A DNA stretch of 64,000 nucleotides, taken from positions 1-64,000 of the forward strand of contig JAJYZF010000005.1 of NCBI GenBank assembly GCA_021800165.1, written 5' to 3'. Positions 3,158 through 52,534 of this stretch are shown here, one piece after another. A program made the position numbers and the translations under genes. Source of the DNA: Planctomycetota bacterium (GTDB taxonomy: Bacteria; Planctomycetota; Phycisphaerae; WQYP01). The number at the start of each line of letters is the position of its first letter. Position 1 is the first letter of the stretch. The notes beneath the pieces are model-generated. The model did not search any database and was not told the DNA's origin. It saw only the letters and a list, made by a program, of their open reading frames with translations.

Positions 3158-3420
3158 GGTTACCGCGGTGAATCTTAACGCGCCCGGGGTTTAACCGCAG
3201 GGGACGCAGAGGACCGCAGAGGATGCTGGGAAGCGGTCAGCCTTCAGCGGTCAGCTATCAGCGGTCAGCGGGAGGACGACCAAATCACCATCCCGGCGCG
3301 GCCGGGATAAACTCCGGACACGGGGGTTCACGAAGAACGGACGGAGGTATCCATCCCGATGGACTTCGGGATAAACGCCTTACGCGGATTTGCACAGATT
3401 AAATGACGACGAGTTTTTAC

Positions 3421-3612
3421 CGCAGGGGACGCAGAGGAACGCAGAGGATGGACGGGGGGCGCTGCGCGAGAGAGGAGCACGGCGGCCGCGGCCGCAGGAG
3501 TTAGAATTTGGGAGCTAGGAGTTGGGAGTAAGGGCTGCGGCGGCGCTAAACGCGGCGCGGCCAGTCCCGATTGGCGACCCCTGTCACATCGGGATTTCGG
3601 CATCCATGCCGC
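3421..3612. repeat. ~190-bp composite repeat, copy 1
   Basis: This block is nearly identical to 7966-8156. Both contain, in order, CGCAGAGGAACGCAGAGGA, GGCGCTGCGCGAGAGAGGAG, a GGCGGC..GGCCGC palindrome, a GGAGTTGGGAG run, CTAAACGCGGCGCGGCCAGT, and a complete repeat D (3565-3610 here). Conservation across the whole block suggests the modules moved as one unit. Confidence 0.8.
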
Positions 3613-3800
3613 GACGGGAGTTAGGAGTTGGGAGCTAGGAGTTAATGGCGGCTGTGGCCGCAGGAGTTAGGAGTTAGGAGTTGGGAGTTAGGAGTTAAAG
3701 GCGGCTGTGGCCGCAGGAGTTAGGAGTTGGGAGCTAGGAGTTAATGGCGGCTGTGGCCGCAGGAGTTAGAATTTGGGAGCTAGGAGTTGGGAGTAAGGGC
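3611..3800. repeat. Tandem array of GGAGTTA/GGAGCTA runs alternating with GGCGGCTGTGGCCGC
   Basis: GGCGGCTGTGGCCGCAGG occurs at about 3647, 3700 and 3746, separated by runs of 7-bp purine-rich words (GGAGTTA, GGAGTTG, GGAGCTA). Related single units occur at about 130-166, 3484, 7876-7945 and 8026. The GGCGGC..GCCGC core is self-complementary. This is non-coding satellite-like DNA. Confidence 0.75.
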
Positions 3801-3829
3801 GGCGGCGGCGCTAAACGCGGCGCGGCCAG

Positions 3830-3906
3830 TCCCGATGCGCTGGTCCTCCAGCATCGGGATTTCGGCATCCGTGCTCCTGCCCCATCGGGATTTCGGCATC
3901 CATGCC
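3830..3906. repeat. Repeat D copy with a duplicated tail
   Basis: TCCCGATGCGCTGG, CAGCATCGGGATTTCGGCA, then a second CATCGGGATTTCGGCATCC tail. This copy carries 1.5 repeat units, like the paired copies at 307-399. Confidence 0.65.
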
Positions 3907-4050
3907 TTAACAGTAGGGTTCGAGGAAGGCGGAATGCGCGGCCGGCTTAGAAATTTTTCGCGGGTTCTGCGTGCCCAGGGAAATAAGCCCTGGGCTCAGG
4001 GGCATCGTCGGATACGGGGCGGGTTTTAAAATTCCTGATAAAATATCCGT

Positions 4051-5295
4051 ATGGCCGAACCTTTACCAACTACTGAATCTCCTCATTCGCCGACGGCGTT
4101 TGCTCCGGTTGCGGAGGTGCTAAAGGCCTTGGCTGCGGGGAAAATGGTGGTTTTGGTGGATGATGAAGACCGTGAAAATGAAGGCGACCTGGTGTGCGCG
4201 GCCCAATTTGTCACGCCACAAATCATCAACTTCATGCTGCGTGAGGCGCGGGGCGTGTTGTGCGCCGCGTTGACCTCGGAAGATTGCCAGCGGCTGGCCC
4301 TGTACCCCCAAGCTATTTATAACACCGCCCCGCTGGGAACGGCGTTTACCGTGAGTGTAGATGCGCACCGCCGCTTCGGCATTACCACCGGGGTTTCCGC
4401 CACGGAACGAGCCAAGACCATCGCCGTGTTGATTGATCCCAAGTCTTCGCCCGACGATTTATGCCGGCCCGGGCATATCAATCCTTTGCGGGCACGACCC
4501 GGCGGCGTTCTGGAACGGGCGGGGCAGACGGAAGGTTCCGTGGATCTGGCGCGGCTGGCGGGGCTTTATCCGGCGGGCGTTATTATTGAAATCATGGCCG
4601 AAGACGGCAGTATGGCCCGGCGGCCGCAACTGGAAACCTTTTGCCAGCGGCATCATTTGCTGATGTGTTCCATCGCGGACCTGATCGCCTACCGCCTAGA
4701 GCAGGAAAGCCTGGTCAAGCGCATCGCCCGGCAACCATTGGCCACGCGCTTTGGCGAGTTCACTTTGCATGTGTACGAAATGGTGAACGATCCGCTGGTA
4801 CACCTGGCTTTATGCTGCGGCGGCGTAGGAGACCTGGACCCGACGGGGCGTCAGGCCATCCCGCAACTGGAACCGGTGCTGGTGCGGATGCACTCGGAGC
4901 ATCTGCTGGGTGATGTGTTCGGGGCGAGCCTGACAGCCAGTGGACGCGAATTGCACGTATCGCTGCAAATGATTCAGGCGGCAGGCAAGGGTGTGGTGGT
5001 TTATCTGCGACAAGAATCCCGCGGTCTGGCCTTGCTATCGCGTCTGGCGGAACTGCGCCAACTGCAGGGTGCGAACACGCCAGCCATAGATAACCCGCCG
5101 ACGGCTTGGACCGAGCGGAGTCATAGTACCCGCCAGGATTTCGGCATCGGCGCACAAATACTGCGGGACTTGGGCCTGACGCAACTGCGTATTCTCACCA
5201 ATCGCCCTAAAAAGCTCTATGGGTTGGAAGGCTTCGGTCTGACTGTGGTGGAGCAACTTCCGATCCCGCTGGAGCCTTCCAGTACACCGACATAA
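4051..5295 (+). CDS. ribBA: RibBA homologue (DHBP synthase / GTP cyclohydrolase II) with degenerate active sites
   Basis: The protein has 414 residues, with an N-terminal RibB-like domain (about 15-215) and a C-terminal RibA-like domain (about 220-405). RibB landmarks are present: DDEDRENEGD, TTGVSA and RPGHINPLRA. However, the metal-binding His of the usual GHTEA motif is Gln (GQTEG). In the RibA half the HSECLTGD and RCDCG motifs, which carry all three zinc cysteines, read HSEHLLGD and LTASG, and the AYxLQD motif is also lost (AELRQLQ). The overall fold signature is kept (RQESRGLALL, IGAQILRDLG, LTNRPKK, GLEGFGL). Known family chemistry is the first steps of riboflavin synthesis. I infer the RibA half is inactive as a GTP cyclohydrolase and the RibB half is doubtful. 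No FMN riboswitch is visible upstream. The ATG at 4051 lacks a strong ribosome-binding site. Confidence 0.85.
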   Translation: MAEPLPTTESPHSPTAFAPVAEVLKALAAGKMVVLVDDEDRENEGDLVCAAQFVTPQIINFMLREARGVLCAALTSEDCQRLALYPQAIYNTAPLGTAFTVSVDAHRRFGITTGVSATERAKTIAVLIDPKSSPDDLCRPGHINPLRARPGGVLERAGQTEGSVDLARLAGLYPAGVIIEIMAEDGSMARRPQLETFCQRHHLLMCSIADLIAYRLEQESLVKRIARQPLATRFGEFTLHVYEMVNDPLVHLALCCGGVGDLDPTGRQAIPQLEPVLVRMHSEHLLGDVFGASLTASGRELHVSLQMIQAAGKGVVVYLRQESRGLALLSRLAELRQLQGANTPAIDNPPTAWTERSHSTRQDFGIGAQILRDLGLTQLRILTNRPKKLYGLEGFGLTVVEQLPIPLEPSSTPT

Positions 5296-5368
5296 CACCC
5301 GGCGAGGGTAGGCCGAAGGGAAAGAGGAAAGGGAAGGGATATCCCGATGGTCGGCGGCGTGTGCCGAC

Positions 5369-5983
5369 GGTGCCGGGGGATTTGGGCATCCAGGCCTTGA
5401 CAGGAGGAGGCGGGCAGAGCACGCATGGCTTCGATTCTTTGGCTTTACGGAAGGATAGTGCGCCCGGCCAAGCAATGGCCGGGCTGCGACGGGATACCGG
5501 TCGCCGGGCGGCCACGATAAACAATAGCCACGTTCCTTGGACCGGTCTCTAATACTCGTCGCTGTCACGGCGCGGTGCCGGGGGATTTGGGCATCCAGGC
5601 CTTGACAGGAGGAGGCGGGCAGAGCACGCATGGCTTCGATTCTTTGGCTTTACGGAAGGATAGTGCGCCCGGCCAAGTAATGGCCGGGCTGGGACGGGAT
5701 GCCGGTCGCTGGGCGGCCACGATAAACAATAACCACGTTCCTTGGACCGGTCTCTAATACTCGTCGCTGTCACGGCGCGGTGCCGGGGGATTTGGGCATC
5801 CAGGCCTTGACAGGAGGTGGCGGGCAGAGCACGCATGGCTTCGATTCTTTGGCTTTACGGAAGGATAGTGCGCCCGGCCAAGCAATGGCCGGGCTGGGAC
5901 GGGATGCCGGTCGGCGGGCGGCCACGATAAACAATGGCTACGCTCCTTGAACCGGTCTCTAATACTCGTCGCTGTCGCGGCGC
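5369..5983. repeat. Tandem repeat, three copies of a 205-bp unit
   Basis: Copies begin at 5369, 5574 and 5779 with an exact 205-bp period and only scattered substitutions. Each copy contains a repeat-D-like tail (GGATTTGGGCATCCAGGCC), a GCAGAGCACGCATGGC segment, a perfect hairpin (stem GCCCGGCCA, 5-nt loop), and at its right end the complement of the last codons of the neighbouring leftward gene (LRRDSDEY plus stop). The third copy's right end is the real 3' end of that gene. The unit therefore seems to be a duplicated gene 3' end plus its downstream hairpin. 205 is not a multiple of 3, so the array is not protein-coding. Confidence 0.9.
5872..5894 (-). terminator. GC-rich hairpin, possible terminator (also at 5667-5689 and 5462-5484)
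   Basis: GCCCGGCCA-AGCAA-TGGCCGGGC is a perfect 9-bp stem with a 5-nt loop, found once per 205-bp unit (loop AGTAA in the middle copy). It lies downstream of the leftward gene ending at 5959 and between two convergent genes. It has no clear U-tract, so it may be a REP-type 3'-end stabiliser rather than an intrinsic terminator. A related hairpin lies at 53920-53936. Confidence 0.45.
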
Positions 5984-6615
5984 AGAGCCAGCGGCCTGCC
6001 GAGTATTTCCGTTAGAATAAACGCGCTGCGTAAGTACCGGCGATCTTGGAGCATAGCCGCGGCAATGGTGCCTGGAGCGGGTACGGGGGCGGGCGTTTTG
6101 GCTGCCGCCGGCCCCTGCACAGATGCGGCCGTTGCCCCGCCGGTCGCGGGTTTGGCCCCGCCTGCAATGGGCTTAGCCCCGCCAGCAATAGGTTTGGCCC
6201 CGCCTGGCTTACCTGGCGGCTGAGGCGCACGGGACGTACTCTCACCGGGGCGCGGCCGCCCTGGGGCTACCGCCGGTTGCCGCACACGAGCCGCAGGCAC
6301 AGAGCGGCTGGACGGGGATTTGGTGCCCCTTGGCGGAGGGGCGGGAAAGGGCACGGTGCGCACCGCGGGCCGCACCGGCTGCCGCGGTTGCTGATAAGCG
6401 GTAGGTTTGTTGGAAGTGGGGGCGCGAGCGGCGGGTGGGCGTGGAGGCGACGGTTGAGCATAAGCCTGGCCGGGCGGGGGCGATGGACGAATGGCGGATT
6501 GGGCCTGACCGGCGGCCCGGCGGCGGGCCTGCTCCTGGGCCAACTGCTGTATGGACACGCGACCGGAGAGAATCTGGCGCGCCAATTGTTCCGGATCTGA
6601 AGGTAACTCGGCCAC
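5959..6615 (-). CDS. Hypothetical Pro/Ala-rich protein downstream of floA
   Basis: I do not recognise a family. The first ~40 residues form a compact helical segment (ELPSDPEQLARQIL...QLAQEQARRRAAG). A long disordered Pro/Ala/Arg-rich stretch follows, with a degenerate GGAKPIA repeat (about residues 145-165). A conserved-looking C-terminus comes last (MLQDRRYLRSAFILTEILG, then RRDSDEY). Start candidates are GTG at 6615 and TTG at 6618, behind AAGGGG. The gene starts about 40 bp after the floA stop on the same strand, so the two are probably co-transcribed. The last codons are duplicated in the adjacent tandem repeat. A linker or adaptor of membrane microdomains is possible but is only a guess from the neighbour. 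Confidence 0.7.
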   Translation of the reverse strand: MAELPSDPEQLARQILSGRVSIQQLAQEQARRRAAGQAQSAIRPSPPPGQAYAQPSPPRPPAARAPTSNKPTAYQQPRQPVRPAVRTVPFPAPPPRGTKSPSSRSVPAARVRQPAVAPGRPRPGESTSRAPQPPGKPGGAKPIAGGAKPIAGGAKPATGGATAASVQGPAAAKTPAPVPAPGTIAAAMLQDRRYLRSAFILTEILGRPLALRRDSDEY

Positions 6616-7761: not shown

Positions 7762-8286
7762 GACATTCCCCTTTCTAAAGTGGAACCGCTAATTTCGTCG
7801 CGCAACTGCCAACCGCAATTTTCACTTTACGAGCGAAAAGCGTGCGTGTCAATGGCGAAGCGGCGAGGGGACGGGGCTGCGGCCGCAGGAGTTAATGGCG
7901 GCTGTGGCCGCAGGAGATAGAAGCTGGGAGCTGGGAGTTGGGAGTTGGGGCGACGAGTTTTTACCGCAGGGGACGCAGAGGAACGCAGAGGACGGAAGGG
8001 GGCGCTGCGCGAGAGAGGAGCACGGCGGCTGTGGCCGCAGGAGTTAGGAGTTGGGAGCTAGGAGTTGGGAGTAAGGGCGGCGGATGCGCTAAACGCGGCG
8101 CGGCCAGTCCCGATTGGCGACCCCTGTCACATCGGGATTTCGGCATCCATGCCGCGACGGGAGTTGGGAGTCAGGAGACAGGAGACAGGCGCTGCGCGAG
8201 ACTGCGCGGCTAGACGACGGCGCAAGACAAGTCGGCTGGGAAGCGGCGGAGGTTTGCATCAGGCGAGGATAAGACCCCGGTCGTCA
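7762..8286. other. Intergenic region: floA upstream DNA, then repeats
   Basis: About 7762-7860 is unique sequence upstream of floA. From 7876 to about 8200 the DNA is repeat modules, including a second copy of the 190-bp composite block and a repeat D. The last ~70 bp (GACGACGGCGCAA..CATCAGGC) resemble 53943-53995. No gene is supported. Confidence 0.7.
7966..8156. repeat. ~190-bp composite repeat, copy 2
   Basis: Same module order and near-identity to 3421-3612, including a complete repeat D at 8108-8153 that is identical to the D copy at 3565-3610 (TCCCGATTGGCGACCCCTG and CATCGGGATTTCGGCATCC). Confidence 0.8.
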
Positions 8287-9003
8287 CTACATCAGGCCGA
8301 GGGCCAATTGGGCTTCTTCCGACATGCGATCTTTGCTCCAAGGCGGATCCCACACCAGATTCACCTTCGCCCCCTTCACCGCGGCAATGGTTTCAACCGC
8401 GGCGGCAACCGCGGGCGGCATGGAGCCGGCCACCGGGCAGCCCGGGGCCGTGAGGGTCATATCGATGATGACTTCGCGTTCGGGCAGAATGGTTATTTTG
8501 TAAATCAGGCCCAGATCATAAATGTTGACGGGAATTTCGGGATCAAAAATAGTGCGGAGCTTTTCGATAATTTCCGCCTCCAGCACTTTATCATGCAGAC
8601 CGGAAAATTCGGGCGATGGGGCCTTGGTGCCATCCGCCGCGGATTCCCCGCTGGCGGTCGGTGCCGAGGCGCCGGTAGAACCTTCGGCGGCGGGCTTGAC
8701 GGGCAAGCGTGTGGCATGGGGATTTTTGAAGGTAAAGCCCCGCCCACCCGCTTCATCTTTGAAGTCAATTTCCGTACCATCCAAACTTGGAAAGCTGGTA
8801 GGATCGCAGACCACTTTGATATCCTGGGAAACGCCGGTCACATCGTCATCGGCGGAAACCTCGGTCAGATCGAGAATATAGTTAAAGCCTTGGATGTTGC
8901 GGCCCTTGATACCAACGCGCAGCACCACCTGGTCAGACATGGCCTGATCTTTGATGATGGCCTTAATTTCCTGGGCGGCCCGCGGAGTTAATGTCACTGC
9001 CAT
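8287..9003 (-). CDS. Fused IscA/HesB-like (cysteine-less) and SufT/DUF59-like protein
   Basis: The protein has about 238 residues from the ATG at 9003 (a TTG at 9030 is less likely). Residues 1-100 align in pattern with A-type Fe-S carriers: TPRAAQEIK, LRVGIKGRNIQGFNY, FTFKNPHAT. Residues 140-238 form a MIP18/PaaD/SufT-like DUF59 domain: IFDPEIPVNIYDLGLIY, MTLTAPGCPVAGSMP, VNLVWDPPWSKDRMSEEA. A-type carriers bind clusters with one Cys in the GGCSGF loop and a C-terminal CGC; here all three are missing (GRNIQGF; no CGC). The DUF59 Cys (APGCP) is retained. The gene is last in the suf operon, so a role in Fe-S maturation is likely. I infer the N-terminal half is a structural or docking domain, not a cluster carrier. 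Confidence 0.85.
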   Translation of the reverse strand: MAVTLTPRAAQEIKAIIKDQAMSDQVVLRVGIKGRNIQGFNYILDLTEVSADDDVTGVSQDIKVVCDPTSFPSLDGTEIDFKDEAGGRGFTFKNPHATRLPVKPAAEGSTGASAPTASGESAADGTKAPSPEFSGLHDKVLEAEIIEKLRTIFDPEIPVNIYDLGLIYKITILPEREVIIDMTLTAPGCPVAGSMPPAVAAAVETIAAVKGAKVNLVWDPPWSKDRMSEEAQLALGLM

Positions 9004-9031: not shown

Positions 9032-9484
9032 CTATTCTGTTTTTACGGGGGCGGCGCTGCCCTGGAGCGCGGCCTGCAAGGTATGCCAGGGCAGGGTGGC
9101 ACATTTAACCCGCACCGGAAATTCCCGTACACCGCCGAATACGGCTAATTTGCCCAGCAATTCTTCATCTTTATCCGCATGGTTTCCGGTGGTGAGTAAA
9201 TCATGGAAGCTCTCAAAAACGGCCTGGGCATCGGCCAGCGACTTACCCTTGAGAGCCTCGGTCATCATGGAGGCGGATGCGGTGGAAATGGCACAGCCGG
9301 ACCCGGTAAAGCTAATATCCTGAATCACACCATTTTCCACCCGTACGAAAACCCGGAGACGATCACCGCAAAGGGGATTGTGCCCATCGGCGGCGCGGGC
9401 GGAATCCGGCATGGTATGGAAGTTCCGCGGCTTTTTGGCGTGGTCCAAGATGACTTCCTGATAAAGTTCGCGTAAATCCGACAT
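9032..9484 (-). CDS. sufU: SufU sulfur-transfer/scaffold protein
   Basis: The protein has 150 residues and a canonical SufU/IscU fold. Three conserved cysteines sit in NPLCGD, GSGCAIS and RVKCATLPW, with the Asp after the first Cys, the zinc-binding set of SufU. The SufU-specific insertion between the second and third Cys is present. Known role: SufU accepts persulfide from SufS and passes it to the SufBCD scaffold. Its ATG overlaps the sufS stop by one base (TGATG), indicating translational coupling. The family length is about 145, so the gene is complete. Confidence 0.95.
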   Translation of the reverse strand: MSDLRELYQEVILDHAKKPRNFHTMPDSARAADGHNPLCGDRLRVFVRVENGVIQDISFTGSGCAISTASASMMTEALKGKSLADAQAVFESFHDLLTTGNHADKDEELLGKLAVFGGVREFPVRVKCATLPWHTLQAALQGSAAPVKTE

Positions 9485-10761
9485 CAGTGGAAAACCTCTT
9501 TCACCTTTTCCAGCCCCAGCACCAACTGATCGACATCTTCGCGTGTGTTATAAAACGCCAGCGAGGCCCGGGCGGTGGCCGGAATTCCGTAGCGGTCCAT
9601 CACGGGCTGGCAGCAATGGTGGCCGGTGCGTATGGCCACGCCCTGGCCATCGAGAATGGTACCCACATCATGGGGATGGGCATAGGAGAGTACAAAGGAA
9701 ATCACCGCGGCTTTATCGGCGGCGGTACCGACAATTTTCAGGCCTTTGATACGGGTGAGTTTTTCCTGGGCATAAAGCAGCAGTTGTCGCTCATAGCCGC
9801 CGATACGATCCAGGCCGATACCGGTGATGTAATCCAGGGCGGCGGCGAGTCCTAAAGCGCCGGAGATATTTGGCGTTCCGGCTTCAAATTTCTGCGGAGC
9901 CGGGGCATAGGTGGTCTGGTCGAAGGTGACGGTTTCAATCATGTCACCGCCGCCCTGATAAGGCGGCATGGCCTGTAAGATCGGCTGCCTGGCGTAGAGC
10001 ACGCCGATGCCCGTAGGCCCGCAGATCTTGTGGCCGGAAAACACAAAAAAGTCGCAGTCGATGGCCCGCACATCAATGGGCAAATGCGGGACCGACTGGG
10101 CGCCATCCACCAGCGCCAGCGCCCCGGCCGCATGGGCCAGCCGGACCATTTGCCGCACCGGGTTGATCGTACCGAGCGCATTGGACACGTGCGTTATGGC
10201 CACCAGCCGGGTGCGTGGATTGAGCAGTTTTTCGTATTGTTCCAGGCAAAGCTCTCCGGCGTCGTTGATGGGAATTACCCGCAGCACGGCACCCACGCGC
10301 TGGGCGAGCATTTGCCAGGGGACGATATTGGAATGATGTTCGAGCGTGGAAAGAATAATTTCATCGCCGGAGCGCACATTGGTACCGCCCCAACTTGCGG
10401 CCACCAGATTGATGGCTTCGGTGGCCCCGCGCACAAATACTATTTCGCGGACATCGGCGGCGTTGATGAATTGCCGCACCCGGTCGCGCGCTATTTCATA
10501 GGCGGCGGTGGCCTGGGTGCTTAGCTCGTAAACGCCGCGATGAATGTTGGCATTCTGGCTGTTGTAAAACCGCGTCATCGCGGCAATCACGGCCTGGGGT
10601 TTTTGGCTGGTGGCGGCATTGTCGAGGTAGGCCAGGCGGCGGCCATGGGAGGTGATCTGCAAAATCGGAAAATCACCCCGGATGTCGTCGGGCGAAAAGG
10701 CCGGCGCTGGGGGCGCTGGCGCCTTGGGGGTGCGGGTGGATTTTACGGTGGTGACGGCCAT
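9484..10761 (-). CDS. sufS: Cysteine desulfurase SufS
   Basis: The protein has 425 residues and belongs to group II NifS-like PLP enzymes. Landmarks: LDNAATSQKP, the His in TLEHHSNIVPW, ALVDGAQSVPH, the PLP lysine in FSGHKICGPTG, and the catalytic Cys in RTGHHCCQPV. It converts cysteine to alanine and enzyme persulfide, which is relayed to SufU encoded next to it. An N-terminal Pro/Ala-rich extension of about 20 residues precedes the domain. GGAGG lies 9 nt before the ATG, inside the end of sufD. It sits between sufD and sufU in one operon. Confidence 0.96.
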   Translation of the reverse strand: MAVTTVKSTRTPKAPAPPAPAFSPDDIRGDFPILQITSHGRRLAYLDNAATSQKPQAVIAAMTRFYNSQNANIHRGVYELSTQATAAYEIARDRVRQFINAADVREIVFVRGATEAINLVAASWGGTNVRSGDEIILSTLEHHSNIVPWQMLAQRVGAVLRVIPINDAGELCLEQYEKLLNPRTRLVAITHVSNALGTINPVRQMVRLAHAAGALALVDGAQSVPHLPIDVRAIDCDFFVFSGHKICGPTGIGVLYARQPILQAMPPYQGGGDMIETVTFDQTTYAPAPQKFEAGTPNISGALGLAAALDYITGIGLDRIGGYERQLLLYAQEKLTRIKGLKIVGTAADKAAVISFVLSYAHPHDVGTILDGQGVAIRTGHHCCQPVMDRYGIPATARASLAFYNTREDVDQLVLGLEKVKEVFH

Positions 10762-10762
10762 G

Positions 10763-12079
10763 TTAAAATTCCTCCCGCTCCAGCCTATGCAATTCGGTTA
10801 CCACGAGGTCTTCCAACATGGTGCGCAAAGCCGGCTGCCACACGCGGGCCAGCACATCCGAGGCAAAAGCGCTGGTCAACATGGCCCGGGCCTGATTACA
10901 GGCCAGCCCTCTGGCCCGCAGATAAAAGAGTTGCTCATCATCCAACGGTCCATTGGTGGAACCATGGGTACACTTGACATCATCGGCATAGATTTCCAAC
11001 TGCGGCTGGGAATTCATGGTGGCCTGGCTGGAAAGCAACACCGCCTTACTGGTTTGTTTGGCATCGGTCTTCTGGGCTCCGGGCCGCACCAGAATTTTGC
11101 CGGTAAAAGTTCCGCTGGATCGGCCGGCCAGGAGGCTCTTGTACAATTCGTGGCTGGCGCACTGTTCCCGCGCATGATCGAGCATGGTGTGATTGTCCAC
11201 ATGCTGCCGCCCCGCCGTCATGGAAAGGCCATTGAGCGTGGCCTGGCTGCCCGGTCCGGCCAGGGTCACGGTAACATTGTTGCGCACCAGCAGACCGCCT
11301 TGATTCAGGGATAAGGATTGAAAGGTCACGTCCCGGTCGAGATGAATATAATCCGAGCCGATATGCAACGCGGCGGTTCCTTCGCGCTGAATTTTGACCA
11401 ACTCCACACGGCTGCCGGCACCAACAGTGGCTTCCACCACGGAATTCGTCAGATAGGCGAGGTGGTCAGGCCCGGTAAAGCTGAAAACCACCGTCACCGC
11501 GGCATTGGCCCCGACTTTAAGAAGGATTCGGGGATAGGTGGTAAACGGCTGATTTCCGAGAGCATGCACGGCCAGATTCAGAGGCGCAGCGACAGTGACG
11601 CCCGCCGGCACCTCGACGAGCACCACATCGCTAAAATTAGCGGTGTTCAGGGCAATAAGACCGTGATGGGATGGGTGGGCCTGGGCACCGAGCAGGTCTG
11701 CAAAAATTTTCGAGTCCGCGGCGGCGGCTTGCGAGAGCAGGGCTATTTTTACCGGAGCGGGCGGCAAACGCGAGGCCGGGCGATACAAGTTCCCGTTGAC
11801 CAACACCAGTGCGGCACCCTCAAGCCCGGGCAGGCGGCCATCAGACGACGGCACAGCAGCCGGGGCTGCGGCGGGGGTTGAAAAATCAGTTTCGGCCAGC
11901 GGCGATAGGTCCGTAAAACGCCACTGTTCGTCGGAATTTTTCGGCAAGCCGACGCGCAGCCACTGCCGACGGGCCTCTTCCCGCCGGGCTTGCAGCCAGA
12001 GAGGGCCTGAGGTGGAAGAGTCCGAACCGGTGGGGAGCAGCCGCTGGAGGTAACTTGTATTGGTCATCACTTGGGTCAT
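10763..12079 (-). CDS. sufD: SufD, SufBCD scaffold subunit
   Basis: The protein has about 438 residues from the ATG at 12079 (an upstream TTG at 12106 is possible; none of the candidates has a strong ribosome-binding site). The N-terminal helical part contains SDEQWRFTDLSPL, the WRxTDL motif of SufD. A long right-handed beta-helix core follows, and the C-terminal region carries NTDHGATVGPLDEEQLFYLRARG-type sequence (CTHGSTNGPLDDEQLFYL). SufD pairs with SufB and two SufC to build and release Fe-S clusters and helps with iron entry. The stop is within 2 bp of the sufS start. The next gene upstream is sufC. Confidence 0.93.
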   Translation of the reverse strand: MTQVMTNTSYLQRLLPTGSDSSTSGPLWLQARREEARRQWLRVGLPKNSDEQWRFTDLSPLAETDFSTPAAAPAAVPSSDGRLPGLEGAALVLVNGNLYRPASRLPPAPVKIALLSQAAAADSKIFADLLGAQAHPSHHGLIALNTANFSDVVLVEVPAGVTVAAPLNLAVHALGNQPFTTYPRILLKVGANAAVTVVFSFTGPDHLAYLTNSVVEATVGAGSRVELVKIQREGTAALHIGSDYIHLDRDVTFQSLSLNQGGLLVRNNVTVTLAGPGSQATLNGLSMTAGRQHVDNHTMLDHAREQCASHELYKSLLAGRSSGTFTGKILVRPGAQKTDAKQTSKAVLLSSQATMNSQPQLEIYADDVKCTHGSTNGPLDDEQLFYLRARGLACNQARAMLTSAFASDVLARVWQPALRTMLEDLVVTELHRLEREEF

Positions 12080-12124: not shown

Positions 12125-12886
12125 TCAATGGACGGCGGCGGGTTCTTCGAGCCAGCCATAGCCGCGGGCTTCCAGTTCCAGGGCGAGATTTTTATCGCCG
12201 GATTTAATGATCTGGCCATCGCGCAGCACATGCACATAATCCGGAACAATGTAATTGAGCAGGCGCTGATAATGCGTTACCAGGAGTATCCCGCGGTCTG
12301 GCCCGCGGAGAGAATTGACTCCGCCGGCCACAATGCGCAGGGCGTCAATATCGAGGCCGGAATCGGTTTCATCGAGAATAGCCAGTTTGGGATCCAGCAC
12401 GGCCATCTGCAAAATTTCGTTGCGTTTCTTTTCTCCGCCGGAAAAGCCCTCGTTGACCGCCCGCGACAAAAAGCTGGGGTCCATATCCAGCAATTTCATT
12501 TTTTGTTTCATGAGCTTGAGAAAATCCATCGCATCGAGTTCCGGCTGGCCATGGTATTTGCGCACGGCATTGAGGGCGGCTTTGAGAAAATAGCTGGTGG
12601 ACACGCCGGGAATTTCGACGGGATATTGAAAGGCCAGAAAGAGGCCCGCACAGGCCCGTTCTTCGGGCGATAACTCCAGCAGATCCTGGCCATCCAACCG
12701 GACCGATCCGCCGGTGACCACATACGTATCACGCCCGGCGAGCACCTGAGCCAAGGTGCTTTTACCCGAGCCATTAGGCCCCATAATCGCATGGACCTCG
12801 CCCGGGACAATGGTTAAATTCACACCGCGGAGGATTTGGCGTCCGGCGATACCGGCTTGCAGATCTTTTATTTCGAGAATTGGCAT
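12125..12886 (-). CDS. sufC: SufC, ABC-type ATPase of the SufBCD complex
   Basis: The protein has 253 residues from the ATG at 12886 (MPILEIKDL), which follows AAAGGAA at good spacing. Longer upstream reading is possible but would overlap the end of sufB. It has Walker [10 protein letters not shown], a Q-loop (AFQYP), the SufC-type signature GFSGGEKKR, Walker [13 protein letters not shown] and the switch His (THYQRLL). It is a soluble ATPase that drives conformational change in SufB-SufD. It lies between sufB and sufD and matches the family length of about 250. Confidence 0.96.
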
Positions 12887-12945: not shown

Positions 12946-14391
12946 TCAGCCCACGCTGCCTTCCAGGCTTACGCCGAGGAGTTTCTGGGCTTCGACGGCA
13001 AATTCCATCGGCAATTCTTTGAAGACTTCCTTGCAAAAGCCGTTGATGATCATGTTGACGGCATCTTCCAGGGCAATACCGCGCTGCTTGCAGTAAAAAA
13101 GCTGATCTTCGCCGATCTTGGAGGTGGAAGCCTCGTGTTCAGCACGCGAGGTGGTATTTTTCATTTCAATGTACGGAAAAGTATGGGCTCCGCATTGATC
13201 GCCCAGCAGCAGGGAATCGCACTGGGTGTAATTGCGGGCGTCGGCCGCACCCTTGAGGACTTTTACCAGGCCGCGATACGTATTTTGACCGTGGCCGGCC
13301 GATATACCCTTGGACACAATGGTGCTGCGGGTATTTTTGCCGATATGAATCATTTTGGTACCGGTATCGGCCTGCTGGTAATTGTTGGCCAAAGCCACGG
13401 AATAGAACTCACCGATGGAATTGTCGCCCTGTAAAATCACACTGGGATATTTCCAGGTGATGGCCGAGCCGGTCTCGACCTGAGTCCAGGAAATCCGCGA
13501 GTTTTGCCCCAGACACTTGCCGCGTTTGGTGACAAAATTATAAATTCCACCTTTACCCTGCTTGTCGCCGGGATACCAGTTCTGCACGGTGGAATATTTG
13601 ATCTGGGCGTTGTCCAGAGCCACGAGTTCCACCACCGCGGCATGCAACTGGTTTTCATCGCGCATGGGCGCGGTGCAGCCTTCCAGATAGCTGACATAGG
13701 CACCTTCTTCGGCGATGATCAGCGTGCGTTCGAACTGGCCGGTTTCCTTGGCGTTAATGCGGAAATAGGTGGAAAGTTCCATGGGACAGCGGACACCCTT
13801 GGGCACAAAGCAAAATGAGCCATCGCTGAAGACGGCGGAATTGAGCGTGGCGTAGAAGTTATCGGAATACGGGACCACGGACCCCAGATACTTCCGCACG
13901 AGATCGGGATGGGTTTTGACGGCTTCGGAAAAGGATCCGAAAATAACCCCCATTTCGGCAAGTTTGGCCTTGAAGGTGGTGGCGACGGAAACGCTATCGA
14001 AAACCGCATCCACGGCGACGTTGGCGAGCAATTTCTGTTCCGCCAGCGGCACGCCGAGCTTAGCGTAGGTGCGCAACAATTCGGGATCAACCTCGTCGAG
14101 ACTGGCGAGCTTCTTTTTGGATTTTGGGGCAGAATAATAGATGATGTCCTGGAAGTCGATGGGCGGATACTTGATATTGGCCCATTGCGGCGGAACCATG
14201 GTCAACCAATGTCGATAGGCTTTCAGGCGAAAATCGAGCAGGAATTCCGGCTCGTCCTTGCGGCGGGAAATTTCGCGAATGATGTCTTCGTTGAGACCTT
14301 TGGGCAGGGCATCGGCGTCAATATCGGTGACAAAACCCCACTCGTATTCTTTATTGGCGAGGGTTTCAATGGTTCCGGTATCTGTAGGCAT
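12946..14391 (-). CDS. sufB: SufB, Fe-S scaffold subunit
   Basis: The protein has 481 residues from the ATG at 14391, preceded by GGAG at 8 nt; an upstream extension in the same frame looks non-coding. Typical SufB sequence is present: [32 protein letters not shown] with the conserved Cys, [15 protein letters not shown], and the C-terminal [21 protein letters not shown] with its Cys. SufB hosts the nascent cluster and persulfide. It is the first gene of a suf operon in the order sufB-C-D-S-U and the IscA/SufT fusion. A sigma70-like promoter with a Fur-like palindrome lies upstream. No SufR or IscR gene is adjacent. Confidence 0.96.
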
Positions 14392-51442: not shown

Positions 51443-52534
51443 ATGACCGTTACCCGCGAAGACATTATTCAAGCCTTGCGCACCGTGGAAGATCCGGAGC
51501 TTTTCAAGGACATCGTCACCCTCAACATGGTCAAGGATGTGAAAATATGTGAAGGAGCGGTAAAGGTGGAGGTGGAACTGACCACGCCGGCGTGTCCGCT
51601 CAAGGAGAAGATCCGCGGTTCAGTGATTGCAGCGCTTAAGCAAGTTCCGGGTGTTGGCGCAGTGGAAGTGGATCTAAGCGCTAAAGTCAGAAGCATGACT
51701 GACCAAAAAAATATTCTGCCGGGCGTGCTCAACATCATCGCCGTGGGTGCGGGCAAGGGCGGCGTGGGCAAGAGCACGGTAGCGGTAAATTTGGCGGTGG
51801 GGCTGGCGTTACAAGGCGCTCGCGTGGGTTTGCTGGACGGCGACGTTTATGGCCCATCCATTCCCACCATGACCGGCCTGGCGATTGAAAATCCAGCGCT
51901 GCGCGGCGAAAAAATCGTACCGTTTGAAATCGGACCAAAAGAGCATGTCATCAAGGTGATGTCGATCGGATTCATTGTGCCCCGGGAAAAGGCGCTCATC
52001 TGGCGTGGGCCGATGGTGCATGGGGTGATCAAGCAATTTTTGGAGCAGGTGGACTGGGGCGACCTGGATTATCTGGTGGTCGATCTGCCGCCCGGCACCG
52101 GTGATGTGTCGCTGACCTTGGCACAGTCGATTCCCCTGACCGGCGCGGTGATTGTGGCCACGCCGCAGGAAGTGGCCCTGATGGACGCCCGCCGGGCCGT
52201 GCGCATGTTTCAGCAACTCGGCGTGTCCATCCTAGGCGTGGTGGAAAATATGAGTTACTTTGTATGCGCTCATGGAACGGAATACGACATCTTCGGCCGT
52301 GGCGGCGCGCGGAACATGGCCAGCACCATGGGCTTGCCTTTTCTGGGAGAATTACCGATTGACATGAGCATCCGCATGTTGTCGGACAGCGGCGATCCCT
52401 TCGCCAATTTCGCCACCACCGGCGCGAGCCAACAGCGGCTGGTGTCCATTGTGCAAGCCTTGGCCGGGCAGATCAGTATCCGCAACATGACGCGTCCGGC
52501 GGGCAAACCACTGCAGGTGGATGTAACGGAATAA
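51443..52534 (+). CDS. mrp: Mrp/ApbC-type Fe-S carrier ATPase with incomplete CxxC
   Basis: The protein has 363 residues from the ATG at 51443 (GAGGTGG upstream; a GTG at 51431 is the alternative). The N-terminal DUF59/MIP18 domain spans about 1-85 (DPELFKDIVTLNMVK, TTPACPLKEKI). The deviant Walker A GAGKGGVGKSTVAVNLA and LDGDVYGPSIPTM, DLPPGTGDVSLTLAQ define the Mrp ATPase. The conserved cluster-binding CxxC normally found after NMSYF is reduced to a single Cys here (FVCAHGTEYDIFG). Known relatives carry 4Fe-4S clusters to apoproteins; whether this one can is uncertain. The N-terminal DUF59 Cys (TPACP) is intact. Confidence 0.92.
   Translation: MTVTREDIIQALRTVEDPELFKDIVTLNMVKDVKICEGAVKVEVELTTPACPLKEKIRGSVIAALKQVPGVGAVEVDLSAKVRSMTDQKNILPGVLNIIAVGAGKGGVGKSTVAVNLAVGLALQGARVGLLDGDVYGPSIPTMTGLAIENPALRGEKIVPFEIGPKEHVIKVMSIGFIVPREKALIWRGPMVHGVIKQFLEQVDWGDLDYLVVDLPPGTGDVSLTLAQSIPLTGAVIVATPQEVALMDARRAVRMFQQLGVSILGVVENMSYFVCAHGTEYDIFGRGGARNMASTMGLPFLGELPIDMSIRMLSDSGDPFANFATTGASQQRLVSIVQALAGQISIRNMTRPAGKPLQVDVTE

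Follow-up and report, generated by a model that had tools for sequence, protein, structure and literature searches.

A cysteine-free A-type carrier domain fused to SufT closes the suf operon in one family of Phycisphaerae and may repeat the NfuA design

Why would a suf operon end in a gene that joins the iron-sulfur maturation factor SufT to an A-type carrier (ATC) domain without cluster-binding cysteines? Such a gene lies on the reverse strand at positions 8287–9003 of the window, the whole 64,000-nucleotide stretch analysed here, which comes from a Planctomycetota bacterium of the class Phycisphaerae (assembly GCA_021800165.1, contig JAJYZF010000005.1). It is the last gene in the order sufB-C-D-S-U-fusion, all on this strand, and each of the other members was assigned by family models scoring over their cut-offs: sufU (9032–9484; TIGR01994, 160 bits), sufS (9484–10761; TIGR01979, 595 bits), sufD (10763–12079; TIGR01981, start chosen at MTQVM), sufC (12125–12886; TIGR01978, start chosen at MPILEI) and sufB (12946–14391; TIGR01980 and PRK11814, start chosen at MPTDTG). 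The ATG of the fusion at 9003 lies 28 nt past the sufU stop, and about 525 bp pass downstream before another gene begins on this strand, in agreement with the sequence-only reading, which had placed the gene at the end of the operon. In a separate observation, intergenic direct repeats with units of about 187–217 nt were found at 3182–5994 and 7867–8184, as well as at 335–398 and 1768; one unit occurs in three tandem copies at 205-nt spacing, and the repeats share a GATTTCGGCATCCATGC core that is present 12 times in the window at up to two mismatches, against 0.03 expected.

The stop-free frame encodes a single 238-aa protein, comprising an ATC domain (residues 1–98; 8710–9003, reverse strand), a loose Ala/Pro/Ser-rich linker (about residues 99–139; 8587–8709, reverse strand) that varies in length and sequence, and a DUF59/SufT domain (residues 142–238; 8290–8586, reverse strand) bearing the DPE and APGC(189)P motifs. 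Pfam assigns PF01521 (Fe-S_biosyn) to residues 1–98 with 42.8 bits (cut-off 26.3) and PF01883 (FeS_assembly_P, DUF59) to residues 142–214 with 59.3 bits (cut-off 23.5), and the NCBIfam equivalog TIGR02945 (SUF_assoc) scores the full C-terminal domain at 141.1 bits, just under its cut-off of 143.4. Each domain matches a solved fold, the first that of IscA (1r94, TMt 0.86) and the second that of DUF59 (3lno). For the full-length chain AlphaFold gave a weak model (pLDDT 67.8, pTM 0.38, with the middle of the linker at about 25–32), which supports only these two folds.

Alignment with canonical ATCs reveals the extent of the change at the cluster site. Canonical proteins of the class read GVKGGGCSGFSY...NPNATxxCGCGSSFS, where the fusion protein reads GIKGRNIQGFNY...NPHATRLPV, so that the canonical GGGCSG...CGCG motifs become GRNIQG...LPV (ligand loop GRNIQGF at residues 34–40, tail LPV at residues 100–102) and all three ligand cysteines are absent. 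The one cysteine of this domain, Cys66 (VVCDP), sits off the ligand positions, and many orthologues have Ala in its place. The idea that other residues stand in for the cysteines as ligands was rejected, since position 37 may be I, M, S, A, P or V and Cys66 is so often replaced, leaving no conserved substitute ligand. Cluster binding and transfer by a domain with this sequence are hence unlikely. In the DUF59 domain, Cys189 is present and is the only invariant cysteine across the fusion orthologues. The sequence-only reading had described an A-type domain that keeps its fold motifs without any of the three cysteines, next to a DUF59 domain that keeps its own, and that description holds.

The architecture is not peculiar to one genome. 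This form of the fusion (type A) occurs as one open frame in 23 of the 28 genomes of the family, own genome counted, and both the fusion and the loss of the ligand cysteines are found in all 23 orthologues, which argues against chance; these orthologues span seven genera. An assembly artefact, or a missed stop between two genes, has next to no probability and was rejected, as the frame is uninterrupted in 23 separately assembled genomes and in the public records L001–L006. No type A fusion was detected in 270 genomes from other families of the class or in 392 genomes sampled from the phylum; as far as searched, type A is thus restricted to one Phycisphaerae family of uncultivated bacteria, with the limit that one scan of genome contigs used patterns derived from a single sequence, which distant fusions elsewhere may escape.

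Selection on the Cys-free domain can be read from both substitution rates and invariant positions. Within the genus, dN/dS is 0.04–0.10 (about 0.08) for this domain, 0.2–0.5 for the linker and 0–0.07 for DUF59, compared with 0.005 for the canonical ATC of the same genus (one pair). A set of 13 canonical Phycisphaerae ATCs is invariant at 42 columns, and every type A row keeps the canonical residue at 22 of these; the columns replaced throughout are concentrated in the ligand loop (G35R and G36N, with positions 37 and 38, formerly C and S, variable) and in the CGCGSSF tail. The old cysteine site is rebuilt rather than scrambled, with GGGCSG turned into GRNxxG and the CGCG tail into LPV; R35, N36, L100 and P101 are new invariant residues, and the former Cys position 37 varies freely. 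A decaying passenger without function would account for the lost ligands and for evolution faster than that of the canonical ATC, but it is very improbable for a domain that is kept in 23 of 23 orthologues across the genera under strong purifying selection and that has gained invariant residues. A degraded copy is likewise rejected by the conserved orthologues and by dN/dS, and an intact CGC motif is found in none of the 23. Judged from the alignments, the type A pattern is that of a domain that has lost cluster binding and remains under selection elsewhere.

What the fusion has displaced is visible in the same family. Four members without it (G006, G010, G012 and G013) carry a stand-alone SufT beside suf genes, and no stand-alone SufT was seen in any fusion-bearing family genome; the fusion replaces stand-alone SufT in the family, and the two are mutually exclusive. 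(G010 also has a SufS-SufE fusion.) Canonical three-Cys ATCs persist elsewhere in fusion-bearing genomes (L078 in the own genome, and others); they are present in nearly all type A genomes and are 56% identical to the Cys-free domain. The own genome encodes three PF01521 proteins (canonical, type A and a second fusion, type B) and one small Nfu, so that carrier function is covered by the canonical ATC and Nfu. It also encodes three PF01883 proteins, namely type A, type B and a 369-aa frame at window position 51455, in which the third DUF59 match spans 51455–51670 and which is perhaps an Mrp/ApbC-type P-loop carrier.

Several published results bear on what a Cys-free A-type domain could contribute. 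The degenerate ATC domain of E. coli NfuA carries no cluster and interacts with client proteins (PMC11327457; PMC8593673), and NfuA interacts with ErpA and stabilises the ErpA cluster (PMC11327457). In M. tuberculosis SufT, one Cys mediates binding to SufS, SufU, aconitase and SufR, and the protein is reported to bind neither iron nor cluster (PMC9045647). In S. aureus, mutations in sufT and in nfu act synergistically (PMC8593673). Taken together, the NfuA interactions, the partner binding of SufT and the sufT/nfu synergy point to the Cys-free domain as a docking module at the A-type hand-over. By this analogy we lean, with restrained confidence, towards an Fe-S maturation factor of two domains built like NfuA, with SufT as the effector and the Cys-free domain for docking. 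The conserved fusion and Cys loss, the purifying selection, the retained folds and canonical residues, the exclusion of stand-alone SufT and the presence of a canonical ATC and a small Nfu in the genome all fit this reading. The A-type domain, no longer binding a cluster but still folded and with most of the conserved surface intact, would dock partners by recognising either the apo-clients that A-type carriers serve or the canonical carrier that remains; the flexible linker would tether it to DUF59, whose single conserved Cys would make the contacts seen in other SufT proteins, with SufS, SufU and clients; and the joining would bring SufT to the point of cluster hand-over by A-type carriers. 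The sequence-only reading had proposed a docking or maturation factor instead of a carrier, which survives as the best reading, within the bounds of an analogy with NfuA and SufT.

ATC domains form dimers, as in IscA and SufA, and the Cys-free domain could accordingly be a subunit-pairing module whose mixed dimers with the canonical ATC bring SufT to the holo-carrier, and not to clients. The near-universal presence of the canonical ATC in type A genomes, its identity to the Cys-free domain and the NfuA-ErpA interaction with its stabilised cluster (PMC11327457) all speak for such pairing; however, on those type A contigs that were examined this gene is located away from the suf locus, and we regard this explanation as unlikely, though worth keeping in mind. 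Gene order bears on docking at the synthesis side, where the A-type domain would bind SufBCD or SufU like SufA and SufT would work at the scaffold. In every orthologue with enough contig, the fusion is co-directional with the suf genes and preceded by sufU in the order sufB-C-D-S-U-fusion; the operons of other families (L088, L089 and L095), used as outgroups, begin with a canonical ATC gene before sufB, and the M. tuberculosis SufT protein has SufS and SufU among its partners (PMC9045647). In the family members G010 and G012, the canonical ATC gene is divergent and lies just upstream of sufB. SufT makes these contacts with SufS and SufU by itself, which leaves no need for an added domain there, and synthesis-side docking seems improbable. 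For the preferred NfuA-like factor, a client or the canonical ATC would rank before the scaffold as docking partner. Overall, selection keeps the ATC domain, probably as a docking module, an arrangement that would repeat the NfuA design with another partner. The natural fusion points to the Fe-S delivery step at which SufT would act, and it offers a ready reagent for testing where SufT acts.

The second fusion in the own genome, type B (G000:C118:53042–53662; L079, L118 and L162), is a 207-aa Cys-free ATC-DUF59 protein with a weak PF01521 match (24.9 bits, just under the cut-off) and a model that fits IscA folds. It occurs in the own genome and about ten relatives, comprising several family members and a second family (relatives recorded in G009, G011, G013, G015, G018, G025, G041, G057 and G063). 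Its neighbours are heme-copper oxidase-like (COX1/COX2-like) genes and a Crp/FNR-type regulator, joined by two hemerythrins nearby in the own genome and by an adjoining copper nitrite reductase-like gene in G041. In the DUF59 tree, type A groups with the suf-operon SufT and type B falls outside, the two halves being far apart, and a single clade of both is rejected (AU p 0.017). The ATC halves do group with moderate support (91/86), beside canonical Phycisphaerae ATCs, a placement that may be misled by long-branch attraction. A single origin was rejected on the DUF59 result despite that grouping, and the deeply different DUF59 halves suggest that the ATC-SufT pairing probably arose twice, two fusion events being the simplest reading. 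The idea of a lineage-specific solution thus fits the type A orthologues, confined to one family, and fails for the pairing as such, which recurs as type B and reaches another family. A broader reading is offered tentatively: Cys-free A-type domains would have joined SufT twice, in two deeply separate DUF59 lineages, with no stand-alone SufT left in the fusion genomes of the family, which would make docking of Fe-S maturation factors a general role of the cluster-free A-type domain, with SufT acting at the A-type hand-over; type A, in the suf operon, would perhaps be the housekeeping form and type B a form for respiration or nitrogen-oxide stress.

Among known systems, E. coli NfuA (b3414) is the closest in plan, since it likewise joins an N-terminal degenerate ATC domain without ligands, matched by PF01521 as in the fusion, to a second Fe-S maturation domain. 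The effector differs, being an Nfu domain in NfuA and DUF59/SufT in the fusion, where PF01106 (the C-terminal Nfu domain with CxxC in NfuA) was not found, and the NfuA gene of E. coli lies outside the suf operon. The analogy is also incomplete, because the NfuA effector domain binds a cluster whereas M. tuberculosis SufT is reported not to. In the tree, the Cys-free domain of the fusion has Phycisphaerae canonical ATCs as its nearest relatives and stands apart from that of NfuA (a single clade has AU p 0.042, the NfuA branch being long); common descent with NfuA is accordingly not supported, and the likeness looks convergent because the two degenerate domains do not group. Compared with the canonical carriers IscA, SufA and ErpA, the fusion has the same fold and keeps about half of the residues that are invariant in canonical ATCs, but lacks the Cys ligands and the CGCG tail and is joined to DUF59. 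With stand-alone SufT proteins (S. aureus SufT, M. tuberculosis Rv1466) it shares DUF59, the DPE motif and one conserved Cys, and differs by the added N-terminal domain.

Modular SufT proteins have been described before. The Nfu N-terminus-SufT protein of Oligotropha carboxidovorans (OCA5_c02770) and the U-type-SufT architecture S5 also place a carrier or scaffold domain N-terminal to SufT, but that donor domain is not described as A-type and they come from one or few genomes (PMC4982691). The same work, a 2016 survey that covered 761 SufT proteins, has no A-type domain in any of its listed architectures (PMC4982691), and a 2009 ATC survey gives NfuA as its example of fused PF01521 (PMC2682760). 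Other arrangements of these genes were also encountered. A SufS-SufE-SufT triple fusion of about 760 aa (aminotransferase V, SufE and DUF59) occurs in another family (L088:4968–7376, G041), with a candidate copy known only as an 805-aa open frame (G063:C138). In Pelagibacteraceae (L013, L016, L019, L020, L022–L031, L035, L046 and L047), sufT is followed by a canonical ATC gene, the reverse of the order in the fusion; two-domain matches from Pelagibacter and gammaproteobacteria were rejected as fusions, being adjacent sufT and normal CGCG-bearing ATC genes. No paper describing ATC-SufT was found in the open-access literature searched. Degenerate ATC domains, as in NfuA, and modular SufT proteins are already known, and the ATC-SufT combination is, as far as searched, new; the repeated evolution of the NfuA design suggests that a carrier can become an adaptor once it no longer binds clusters.
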